From: Alphaproteobacteria bacterium
Lineage (GTDB): Bacteria > Pseudomonadota > Alphaproteobacteria > Micropepsales > Micropepsaceae
Length of the DNA: 64,000 nt
Reading direction: 5' to 3'
Assembly: GCA_947474565.1 (NCBI GenBank)
Contig: CANJIS010000003.1
Location: forward strand, 1-64,000
This document shows, one piece after another, positions 9,364-56,492 of this stretch (the first letter of the stretch is position 1; each line of letters opens with the position of its first letter). The notes under the pieces were generated by a model. It was not told the origin of the DNA. It did no database searches and saw nothing but the letters and a program-made list of their open reading frames with translations. The position numbers were made by a program, and so were the translations under genes.

Positions 9364-10986
9364 ATGATTCGTCTCGACAACATCAGCAAGCAGAACGGCC
9401 ATCAACTTCTGTTCATTGACGCCTCGATGGGCATCCAGAAAGGCGAGAAGGCCGGGCTGGTCGGTCCCAATGGCGCCGGCAAGAGCACCCTGTTCCGCAT
9501 GGTTGCAGGCCAGGACCGGCCCGATGACGGCCAGGTCTCGGTCGAGAATGGCTGGACCATCGGCTATTTCAGCCAGGATGTCGGCGAAATGTCGGGCCAG
9601 AGCGCCGTCGCGGCGGTAATGGATGGTGTCGGGCCCGCCAGTGCGCTGGCCGCCGAAATGGCCCAGCTTGAGGCCGCGATGGTCGATCCCGATCAGGCCG
9701 CCAATATGGACGCGCTGGTCGAGCGTTATGGCGAAGTCCAGGCGCATTTTGAGGAACTGGACGGCTATGCGCTGGATGCACGGGCGCGCGAGGTTCTTGC
9801 GGGGCTCAGTTTCAGCCAGGAACGCATGGACGGCGATGTCGGCCTTCTCTCGGGCGGCTGGAAGATGCGCGTGGCGCTCGCCCGCATTCTGGTGATGCGC
9901 CCCGATGCCATGCTGCTGGACGAGCCCAGCAACCATCTGGACCTGGAAAGCCTGATCTGGCTGGAGGAATTCCTCAAAAACTATGACGGGGCGTTGCTGA
10001 TGACCTCGCATGACCGCGCCTTCATGAACCGCATTGTCGGCAAGATCGTGGAGATCGATGGCGGTTCGCTCACCACCTATTCGGGCGATTACGATTTCTA
10101 CGAGCAGCAGCGCGCCCTGACCGAGAAGCAGCGCCAAGCGCAGTTCGACCGCCAGCAGGCGATGATGGCCAAGGAAATCAAGTTCATCGAACGGTTCAAG
10201 GCGCGTGCCTCGCACGCCGCCCAGGTCCAAAGCCGCGTCAAGAAACTGGACAAGATCGAAAAGATCGAGCTGCCCCGGCGCCGTCAGGCCGTGCAGTTCG
10301 AATTCCGCACCCCGCCGCGCTCGGGCGATGATGTGGCCGGCTTCAAGAATGTTCACAAGGCGTATGGCAGCCAGACCATCTATGCCGGGCTCGATTTTCA
10401 GGTCCGCCGCAAGGAACGCTGGTGCATCCTGGGCGCCAACGGTGCCGGTAAATCCACGCTCCTGAAACTGGTGGCGGGCGCGACCGAGCCAGATCAGGGC
10501 AAGGTGGTCGTCGGCAGCGCTGTGAAGATGGGCTATTTCGCCCAGCACTCCATGGATTTGCTGGACGGCGACGACACGGTTTTCGAGTCCCTGGACAAAT
10601 CATTCCCGCAAGCCGGGCAGGGCCCGCTGCGCACCTTGGCCGGCTGCTTCGGCTTCTCCGGCGACGATATCGAGAAAAGCTGCCGCGTGTTGTCCGGCGG
10701 CGAAAAGGCGCGCCTGGTCATGGCCAAAATGTTGTACGACCCGCCGAATTTCCTGGTGCTGGATGAGCCCACCAACCATCTGGATATGGCGACCAAGGAA
10801 ATGCTGGTCGCTTCCCTGGCGGAATTCGAAGGCACCATGCTGTTTGTTTCGCATGACCGCCACTTTCTGGCGGCGTTGTCCAACCGCGTGCTGGAACTGG
10901 CGCCCGACGGCATCCATCAATATGGCGGCGGCTACACCGAATATGTCGCCCGCACCGGCCACGAAGCCCCGGGCCTTCATCCGTGA
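9364..10986 (+). CDS. ABC-F family ATP-binding protein
   Basis: Two Walker A motifs (GPNGAGKST, GANGAGKST), two signature/Walker B sets (LDEPSNHLD, LDEPTNHLD), no TM segments. Confidence 0.93.
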   Translation: MIRLDNISKQNGHQLLFIDASMGIQKGEKAGLVGPNGAGKSTLFRMVAGQDRPDDGQVSVENGWTIGYFSQDVGEMSGQSAVAAVMDGVGPASALAAEMAQLEAAMVDPDQAANMDALVERYGEVQAHFEELDGYALDARAREVLAGLSFSQERMDGDVGLLSGGWKMRVALARILVMRPDAMLLDEPSNHLDLESLIWLEEFLKNYDGALLMTSHDRAFMNRIVGKIVEIDGGSLTTYSGDYDFYEQQRALTEKQRQAQFDRQQAMMAKEIKFIERFKARASHAAQVQSRVKKLDKIEKIELPRRRQAVQFEFRTPPRSGDDVAGFKNVHKAYGSQTIYAGLDFQVRRKERWCILGANGAGKSTLLKLVAGATEPDQGKVVVGSAVKMGYFAQHSMDLLDGDDTVFESLDKSFPQAGQGPLRTLAGCFGFSGDDIEKSCRVLSGGEKARLVMAKMLYDPPNFLVLDEPTNHLDMATKEMLVASLAEFEGTMLFVSHDRHFLAALSNRVLELAPDGIHQYGGGYTEYVARTGHEAPGLHP

Positions 10987-11023
10987 GCAACGCGCCGAGC
11001 TTGGGCGAGGCGCAGGCGAGCGG
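10982..11023. repeat. Copy D of dispersed intergenic repeat (partial)
   Basis: gtgagcaacgcgccgagcttgggcgaggcgcaggcgagcggc shares cgagcttgggcgag with copy A; fills the gap between two convergent genes. Confidence 0.45.
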
Positions 11024-31051: not shown

Positions 31052-31450
31052 ATGACCCAAGATCTGCGCGAAACGGCCAAGAACTATTACCGCGCCTTTG
31101 AACGCCATGACCGCGCTTTCATGGAAAGCCATCTGGCGGCGGATTTCACCTTCACCAGCCCGTTCGATGAGCATATCGACCGCGCCGCCTATTTTCGCCG
31201 CTGCTGGCCGGAAAAGCCCCTGCACCAAAAATTCGACTTTGTGACGGTGATGCAGGACGGCGAACGCGTCTTTGTCGCCTATGACGCCACCATGCGCCTG
31301 CCCAACCCCACCCATCCGCACGCCCGCTTCCGCAATGCCGAACTCATGACCTTCGAAGGCGGCAAGCTGAAAAGCGTGGAAGTGTTTTTCGGTGATCCGC
31401 CGGGCGGCCTGACGCGCCACCAATTCGCGGTTCAATCGGGCGCGGCATAA
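31052..31450 (+). CDS. NTF2/SnoaL-like nuclear transport factor 2 family protein
   Basis: ENYYRAFERHDRAFMESHLAADFTFTSPFDEHIDRAAYFRRCWP-type pattern, 132 aa. Confidence 0.82.
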   Translation: MTQDLRETAKNYYRAFERHDRAFMESHLAADFTFTSPFDEHIDRAAYFRRCWPEKPLHQKFDFVTVMQDGERVFVAYDATMRLPNPTHPHARFRNAELMTFEGGKLKSVEVFFGDPPGGLTRHQFAVQSGAA

Positions 31451-31454
31451 AAAA

Positions 31455-31560
31455 GGCCCGGATCGCGCTGGGGTGAGGAGCGGCGCGCATATGCGCGTGA
31501 GCAGGTCCAGTGGACCTGCGAAAGTGACGAACGCCGCGAGCTTGGGCGAGCGGCCGGGCC
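31455..31560 (+). repeat. Copy A of dispersed palindromic intergenic repeat
   Basis: Ends ggcccgg/ccgggcc are inverted; contains cgcgcatatgcgcg (31484-31497) and gcaggtcca-g-tggacctgc (31501-31519) hairpins, then gacgaacgccgcgagcttgggcgagcggc. Confidence 0.75.
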
Positions 31561-31584: not shown

Positions 31585-31613
31585 AAAAGGCCGGTCTTTC
31601 GACCGGCCTTTTC
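31585..31613 (-). terminator. Terminator hairpin for rplI (bidirectional appearance)
   Basis: aaaaggccggt-ctttcg-accggcctttt with A-tract/T-tract flanks. Confidence 0.85.
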
Positions 31614-31634
31614 TATTGCAGGTTGCTGAGAAAC

Positions 31635-51990: not shown

Positions 51991-52080
51991 GGCTGCCGCT
52001 CGCCTAAGCTCGCGGCGTTCGCCTGCTCTCGCAGGTCCCCTGGACCTGCTCGGGCGCGTTCCGCGCGCCGCGGCTCACTC
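51991..52080 (-). repeat. Copy B of dispersed palindromic intergenic repeat
   Basis: Reverse strand gagtgagccgcggcgcgcggaacgcgcccgagcaggtccaggggacctgcgagagcaggcgaacgccgcgagcttaggcgagcggcagcc aligns along copy A. Confidence 0.75.
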
Positions 52081-53097
52081 TTTTTCTCTTTTGGAGAGGC
52101 GATTCAGCATCGCGCTTTGGCGATGCCATTGCCGGACCGGCACAGCCGGATAGCCGGCCACGGTTTCGCCTGCCGCCACATCGCGCATCACGCCGCTTTT
52201 GCCGGCGATCTTGGCGCCGTCGCCAATGGTCAGATGATCGCTAATGGAAACGCCGCCGCCCACCATCACATAATCGCCCAGCACCGCAGAACCGGCGACG
52301 CCGGCTTGTCCGGCCAGTACGCAATTTTTTCCGATCCGGACGTTGTGACCGATCTGCACCAGGTTATCGATGGCGGTATGATCGCCGATTATCGTGTCGC
52401 CCAGGGCGCCGCGGTCAATGGCGCAATTGTCGCCGATCTCCACGCCGTTGCCGATGACCACACGGCCGATATGCGACAACCGCACCAAGCCTTTGGGGCC
52501 GGGTACAAAGCCGAAGCCTTCACCGCCGATGCTGACATTGGCGGAAATTTTTACAGCGTCACCGATCACGGCATTGCTGATGCTGCAATTGGGTCCGATC
52601 GCGGTTCCCGCACCGATCATGACGCCATCGCCGATCACAACATTGGCGGCGATATGGCAGCCCGCGCCAATCACAACATTCTCACCGATCACCGCGCCGG
52701 TTTCGATGCCGGTGCCGGTGCCGATGCTGGCGCTGGACGCCACGCTGGCGTTCACGTGAACAGAATTTTTGTGCTTGGCCGCAGGATAGAACAGCCGCCC
52801 AAGCTGCGCGAAGGCCAGGCGTGGATTGGCGGCCAGGATCAGCGCGCTGCCATTGTGCGGATAATCGCCAAGCCGGCTGGAGGTAACGACAACTCCGGCA
52901 TGGCTGCGCGCAAATGCGGCGGCGTGCCGGACATCGCAGAAAAGACTGAGATCGTCTTCACCCGCTTTTTCAAGCTCGGCAATGTCATGGACAAGCTGAT
53001 TGGCGCGCTCGGGTTGCGCCAACTGACCACCAACAGAATCCGCTAGAAAAGCCAGGGCAAAAGGCCCTTCAGGGCGGAAAAAACGTCCGTCCGACAT
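52075..53097 (-). CDS. lpxD: UDP-3-O-acylglucosamine N-acyltransferase
   Basis: Left-handed beta-helix hexapeptides (VNASVASSASIGTGTGIETGAVIGENVVIGAGCHI), GGEGFGFVPGPKGLVRLSHIGRVVIG, IGHNVRIGKNCVLAGQAGVAGS. Confidence 0.95.
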   Translation of the reverse strand: MSDGRFFRPEGPFALAFLADSVGGQLAQPERANQLVHDIAELEKAGEDDLSLFCDVRHAAAFARSHAGVVVTSSRLGDYPHNGSALILAANPRLAFAQLGRLFYPAAKHKNSVHVNASVASSASIGTGTGIETGAVIGENVVIGAGCHIAANVVIGDGVMIGAGTAIGPNCSISNAVIGDAVKISANVSIGGEGFGFVPGPKGLVRLSHIGRVVIGNGVEIGDNCAIDRGALGDTIIGDHTAIDNLVQIGHNVRIGKNCVLAGQAGVAGSAVLGDYVMVGGGVSISDHLTIGDGAKIAGKSGVMRDVAAGETVAGYPAVPVRQWHRQSAMLNRLSKREKE

Positions 53098-56415: not shown

Positions 56416-56492
56416 GGTGAGCCGGATTAGCAAAAGGTCCGGTGGACCTTTTGCCCGGCGAACGCCGAGCGCGAAGCGCGAAGGCCGGGACG
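56416..56492 (+). repeat. Copy C of dispersed palindromic intergenic repeat
   Basis: gtgagccggattagcaaaaggtcc-ggt-ggaccttttgcccggcgaacgccgagcgcgaagcgcgaaggccgggacg; 11-bp arms gcaaaaggtcc/ggaccttttgc. Confidence 0.65.

Follow-up and report, generated by a model that had tools for sequence, protein, structure and literature searches.

A dispersed, REP-like structured repeat in an alphaproteobacterium, with many copies lying on stop codons

Downstream of a SnoaL-like gene in the alphaproteobacterial genome G000 (2.18 Mb, 39 contigs) lies a palindrome-rich segment, copy A, that recurs in altered form nearby. The stretch of DNA analysed, referred to here as the window, comprises positions 1-64000 of contig C3 (64,000 nt). 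A first-pass annotation of the window had proposed a REP- or MITE-like element, perhaps a structured RNA, and the question was what kind of element this is and how it came to be dispersed.

The element, its fold and its copies

The sequence quoted for copy A, both of its palindromes and the outer ends ggcccgg/ccgggcc were all present where they had been placed. The repeat is real, but the element proper is narrower than the 31455-31560 originally assigned to it, running from 31473 to 31555 on the forward strand. The 7-bp inverted ends (31455-31461 and 31554-31560) were not seen round other copies and are specific to copy A; they are not a family trait, and the MITE-like reading based on them was abandoned. 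Copy A starts 22 bp past the stop of the SnoaL-like gene (31052-31450), and a convergent gene for ribosomal protein L9 (31635-32231, reverse strand) lies on its far side. Between copy A and the L9 gene there is a terminator-like hairpin, aaaggccggtctttcgaccggcctttt, with a T-rich tail (31588-31615), which places copy A between the stop codon of the SnoaL-like gene and a likely terminator.

The 83-nt element folds as a three-way junction, in which an outer helix (P1) encloses two hairpins (HP1 and HP2), followed by a 3' hairpin (HP3). In copy A, all on the forward strand, the 5' strand of P1 is GT-GA-G-GA-GC (31473-31481) and its 3' strand GT-GA-C-GA-AC (31524-31532), HP1 is the gcgcgcatatgcgcg hairpin (31483-31498), HP2 is gcaggtcc-agt-ggacctgc (31501-31519) and HP3 is GCCGC-GA-GC-ttgg-GC-GA-GCGGC (31533-31554). 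The ab initio MFE fold of copy A is the model structure (z=-3.2). Covariation supports the helices, including 5/5 modelled pairs of HP1 and 7/8 pairs of HP2, and the assignment of P1 and HP3 is also based on the mismatch counts given below.

In 30 aligned copies, standard pairs occupied 97.9% of pair cells, a value biased upward by the fitting of the alignment to the structure, compared with 80.5% in shuffles and 23-41% when the partners were slid. Both-sided, compensatory changes were found at 19 of the 25 pairs in this alignment, with a covariation score of 0.421 vs 0.135. Across copies the HP1 stem occurs as CGCGC, TTCGC, CCCGC and TTCATC, and the HP2 stem as GCAGGTCC, GAAATGGTCC, AAATCGGTCC, GAAACGATCC and GAAATAGCCC. 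This confirmed the reading as a structured repeat, whose hairpins are kept by compensatory change. Of 157 rows, 136 have tandem G.A mismatches (GA opposite GA) in P1 and 144 have them in HP3. On the opposite strand GA/GA would read TC/TC, and the predicted fold of that strand lacks P1. This makes it most likely that the element functions as a single strand, either RNA or ssDNA. An Rfam scan gave no match to the element above the gathering threshold (the window yielded only a tRNA, and the surroundings of copy A only sub-threshold matches); a known RNA family was rejected as no Rfam family reached threshold.

The related copies noted at first proved to be real. Copy B (51994-52078, reverse strand) is, like copy A, of type Ia. 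Copy C (56417-56486, forward strand) is a different subtype, type II, without HP1 and with a long HP2, GCAAAAGGTCCGGTGGACCTTTTGC; it follows an NDK gene and a terminator-like hairpin and precedes an SDR gene. The partial copy D (10983-11014, forward strand) is internally deleted, the start of P1 being fused to HP3. Eight copies of type I, A and B among them, were used to build a covariance model (R1), against which the four copies scored 105.7 bits (copy A, E 2.7e-20), 88.4 bits (B), a weak 23.3 bits (C) and 26.6 bits (D).

Scanning the whole genome with R1, as the first-pass annotation had proposed, gave 35 matches at E<=1, 27 of them at E<1e-4, with types II and III under-counted by this model. 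The family is dispersed, and its abundance greatly exceeds what chance would give. By whole-genome pattern search, the core AGGTCCNNTGGACCT was found at 14 places and the reversed pattern at 0; one of the 14 (L004), along with several matches to a looser pattern, was judged by eye not to be a member. Three subtypes were distinguished: type I has HP1, HP2 and HP3, while type II (GCAAAAGGTCC..) and type III (GCCGAAGGTCC..) are both without HP1. The element has been dispersed to many sites, has formed subfamilies and has had its structure maintained through compensatory change. The best pairwise identity among copies inside the genome is only 89%, so dispersal in G000 was not very recent. Two loci on contigs C2 and C1 (L050:1501-1602 and L051:1501-1602) have an identical extended HP2 loop, TCTCGCCACGCTGCCGCTAGCGAGGGA, which is evidence for copying between loci in this genome.

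Some copies have unusual surroundings. At L043:1501-1583 (G000:C1:155970-156052) the element is nested in an apparent CGTC-type alphaproteobacterial REP (TGTC-ATTCCCGGC ... GCGGGAAT-CCA). L149:6887-7111 and L179:421-681 each contain three element matches arrayed head-to-tail. An extra 3' segment, GGAGAGCTG...GCTC, follows HP3 as a potential fourth hairpin (HP4) at the OmpA-like loci L229, L236-L238 and L240 and at L117/L188. This segment is limited to some copies, and an element of full length may measure about 130 nt.

Stop codons and empty sites

Two genes of the window take their stop codon from a copy of the element: an LpxD gene (52075-53022, reverse strand) ends in the TGA of copy B (52075-52077), and an ABC-F gene (9364-10986, forward strand) in that of copy D (10984-10986). 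Gene contexts were then determined for 157 copies from G000, its relatives and named records, using our own codon-usage gene caller (a simple codon model). These copies were gathered by best-match and exact-pattern sampling, with many of the genomes being MAGs, and the counts are not a census.

Of 149 distinct copies, 122 start with GTGA, and in 55 the TGA of the 5' GTGAG is the stop of the upstream gene. The stop falls within -3 to +5 of the first base of the element in 79 of the 149, and in a further 13 a sense gene reads 6-40 nt into the element. With duplicates included, the stop positions form a spike, with 58 copies at +4, 12 at +1 (TA followed by GTGAG) and 4 at +2 (T followed by GAGAG). 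Only 19 copies lie 4-60 nt downstream of a stop, against the 79 docked ones (binomial p about 2e-50, with related copies treated as independent). Within the window, 22 GTGA sites are non-coding and 7 of them overlap a stop; taken alone this null is too weak, and the positional peak is the better test. The last codon before the docked TGA is GGG in 32 of the 55 cases and GAG in 17. This docking on stop codons is a new point, overlooked in the first-pass annotation.

Stop readthrough or recoding was considered and rejected: the HP1 loop and stem differ in length by single bases, which argues that no frame is conserved past the stop.

Empty sites in relatives, which the first-pass annotation had suggested looking for, were found at four genes. 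Orthologues were located via concatenated C-termini and then retrieved, the proteins being named from their sequence rather than by family search. The OmpA-like (protein end FVQG), Ppx-like (ILVG), ferredoxin-like (VAPE) and ABC-permease-like (GLRE) proteins have the same last residue with and without the element. Empty sites end in, for example, GGC-TGA, GGT-TAA, GAA-TAG or GAG-TAG; filled sites almost always end in GGG-TGA or GAG-TGA running on into the element. The shared protein end indicates that insertion occurred without truncation and that the stop was supplied by the element. Many copies thus lie exactly on natural stops, with their own TGA serving as the stop codon and the length of the protein kept. 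Gene truncation through random insertion was rejected at these four genes since the empty orthologues end at the same residue. A pre-existing GTGA target was also rejected, as empty sites carry GGT-TAA, GAA-TAG and similar ends, and the element therefore appears to bring its own GTGA. LpxD and a TolB-like gene gave less informative tests owing to divergence of the C-terminus or the intergenic DNA.

At the OmpA locus, the filled site in G001 and the empty sites in G018 and G036 share their flanks and differ by one insertion of ~130 nt that includes HP4. No clear target-site duplication was seen in this comparison, which is one close pair whose immediate flanks have diverged. On the Ppx and OmpA gene trees, which are short single-gene trees, the presence of the element needs at least four changes each, two of them forced by well-supported branches. 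One and the same OmpA stop is also occupied by different subfamilies in closely related genomes, suggesting that insertion was repeated or that one element was replaced by another.

The strongest competing explanation is that the element is a cis-regulatory RNA that governs translation termination or the processing of the 3' UTR and is retained at stops by selection, its apparent dispersal being due mostly to vertical descent and to gene conversion among copies. The peak at stop codons is as this would predict, the element is kept at orthologous loci across genomes, and compensatory changes occur within one locus (for example L078/L081 and L039/L073). However, presence is patchy at each locus even between close genomes, requiring several gains or losses, the genes that carry the element have no evident shared function, and the same fold is found in antisense and intergenic copies. 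Orientation was also informative. The element is in sense in 81 of 96 co-directional gene pairs, but this bias stems from the docked copies; apart from stops there were 22 sense and 15 antisense copies, which is no orientation bias (p=0.32), and antisense copies have kept their structure as well as docked ones (Mann-Whitney p=0.24). These observations favour a structure kept for mobility over a purely selected cis-regulatory RNA, which is considered unlikely.

Known repeats and the search for a mobiliser

The defining features of a REP are a palindrome and a GT[A/G]G tag at its 5' end (PMC3686654), and two superfamilies, GTAG and CGTC, are known (PMC3733652). The ends of GTAG REPs often supply a TAG stop (PMC3733652). 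TnpA_REP reads one strand through the tag and irregularities in the stem (PMC8266576), and Pseudomonas REPs such as GTGGGAGCGAGCTTGCTCGCGAT have a stem with GA on both sides (PMC3686654). On one reading the present element is a classical REP, moved by a RAYT (a Y1 tyrosine transposase). Like GTAG REPs it is a multicopy, mostly intergenic stem-loop downstream of a tag, and its dispersed palindromes, strand-specific fold with G.A mismatches in the stems, supply of a stop and position at the 3' ends of genes are all as described for that group (PMC3733652, PMC3686654, PMC8266576). Its tag, however, is GTGA, giving the stop TGA, and does not fit GT[A/G]G, and it is an 83-nt three-way junction with a further hairpin whereas a GTAG REP is one 20-40 bp palindrome.

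A cognate transposase was also missing. The RAYT/Y1 partner that the first-pass annotation had suggested seeking was not in the genome: PF01797 had 0 matches in G000, compared with matches in 5 of 14 control genomes, and was absent from the complete, element-rich relatives G009, G015, G030 and G035. Across the genus there was no association, Y1 being present in 4 of 15 element-bearing members and 9 of 26 others. Of the Y1 loci scanned, only one (L099) had an element within 1.5 kb, at 1.1 kb, which is near chance for that density of copies. RAYT was therefore rejected as the mobiliser, and a classical RAYT-driven REP is improbable, more so than the cis-regulatory RNA.

The distribution of the element is patchy. 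Among genomes of the same genus 15 of 37 carry it, and the 24 sampled alongside them from other genera have none; G016, an isolate of the genus, has 18 matches. A sample of 289 taken across the class added one or two copies in two more genera, the copies in G127 being convincing by eye. A weak, outlying copy in another genus, L284 (G168), lies directly beside an apparent tRNA gene. An exact sub-pattern scan of 84,980 genomes gave 107 stretches and, among the 80 matches listed, all had alphaproteobacterial or proteobacterial titles.

CGTC REPs are common in alphaproteobacteria, lie at gene ends and have no dedicated transposase known (PMC3733652), and the element resembles them in all three respects. 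It is unlike their published description in being without the terminal CGTC/TGTC, the 8-9 bp stem starting with AT and the CCA tail, and in having a larger compound fold. MITEs such as YPAL and ERIC are likewise structured, adjacent to genes and expected to be transcribed, but the element is without family-wide terminal inverted repeats. It is an elaborate variant of the REP type, outside both the GTAG and the CGTC superfamilies; an earlier description in the subscription literature is possible.

Mode of spread and possible role at mRNA 3' ends

Rho-independent terminators or a protein-binding dsDNA palindrome, GGTCCNNNGGACC, would fit the HP2 core being among the most conserved parts and the many copies at convergent gene ends, but can be set aside as very improbable, since no T-run follows HP3 (the downstream consensus is G-rich, GG(G/A)), the terminator-like hairpin with its T-rich tail downstream of copy A is a separate structure, a dsDNA site would need no covarying, G.A-bearing P1, HP1 and HP3, and the HP2 core itself varies with compensation.

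The best explanation, with a probability of about 0.68, is a REP-like, non-autonomous palindromic element that has a GTGA tag instead of GTAG or CGTC and is moved in trans by some enzyme. The original reading as a REP-like dispersed structured repeat is borne out by the genome-wide copies, the covariation, the patchy distribution and the empty sites. In the proposed mechanism one strand would form the recognised fold, with 5'-GTGAG opening P1, P1 enclosing HP1 and HP2, and HP3 next. Spread would occur on ssDNA, by an enzyme that works in trans and is specific for structure and strand; this enzyme is presumably no longer, or not recognisably, encoded in G000, and would favour insertion after a GR dinucleotide.

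A docked copy would then form the first part of the transcribed 3' UTR. For E. coli, work cited in PMC5082802 reports that ribosomes stall and trans-translation is triggered where a REP lies within 15 nt of a stop, and that REPs also impede 3' exonucleases. Compared with E. coli REPs near stops as summarised there, the stop codon here sits inside the outermost helix, P1. A terminating ribosome would be expected to melt P1 and then to encounter HP1 and HP2 immediately downstream; the refolded structure could shield the mRNA from 3' exonucleases, slow termination, or both, in the manner of those E. coli REPs. A role at mRNA 3' ends had been raised in the first-pass annotation, and the stop-docked position fits it very well, though the absence of an orientation bias among copies away from stops speaks against it; an effect on termination or mRNA decay may follow, as a possible consequence of docking. 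A more speculative and rather doubtful extension is that the element has insertion specificity for stop codons and, with the stop inside its own outer helix, is unfolded and released by each terminating ribosome. The element would then act as a transposable 3'-UTR switch coupled to termination, with one subfamily repeatedly taking the place of another at the same stops.

Abundant as REPs are, how those without a RAYT spread is an open question, stated as such for CGTC REPs (PMC3733652). The present family is a tractable case, with a large, covarying, strand-specific fold, clear empty stop-codon sites and no Y1 transposase. If docking reflects insertion specificity, a stop-codon-targeting mobilisation system is still to be found; if it reflects selection, the enclosure of the stop in a helix suggests that termination or mRNA decay is being controlled.
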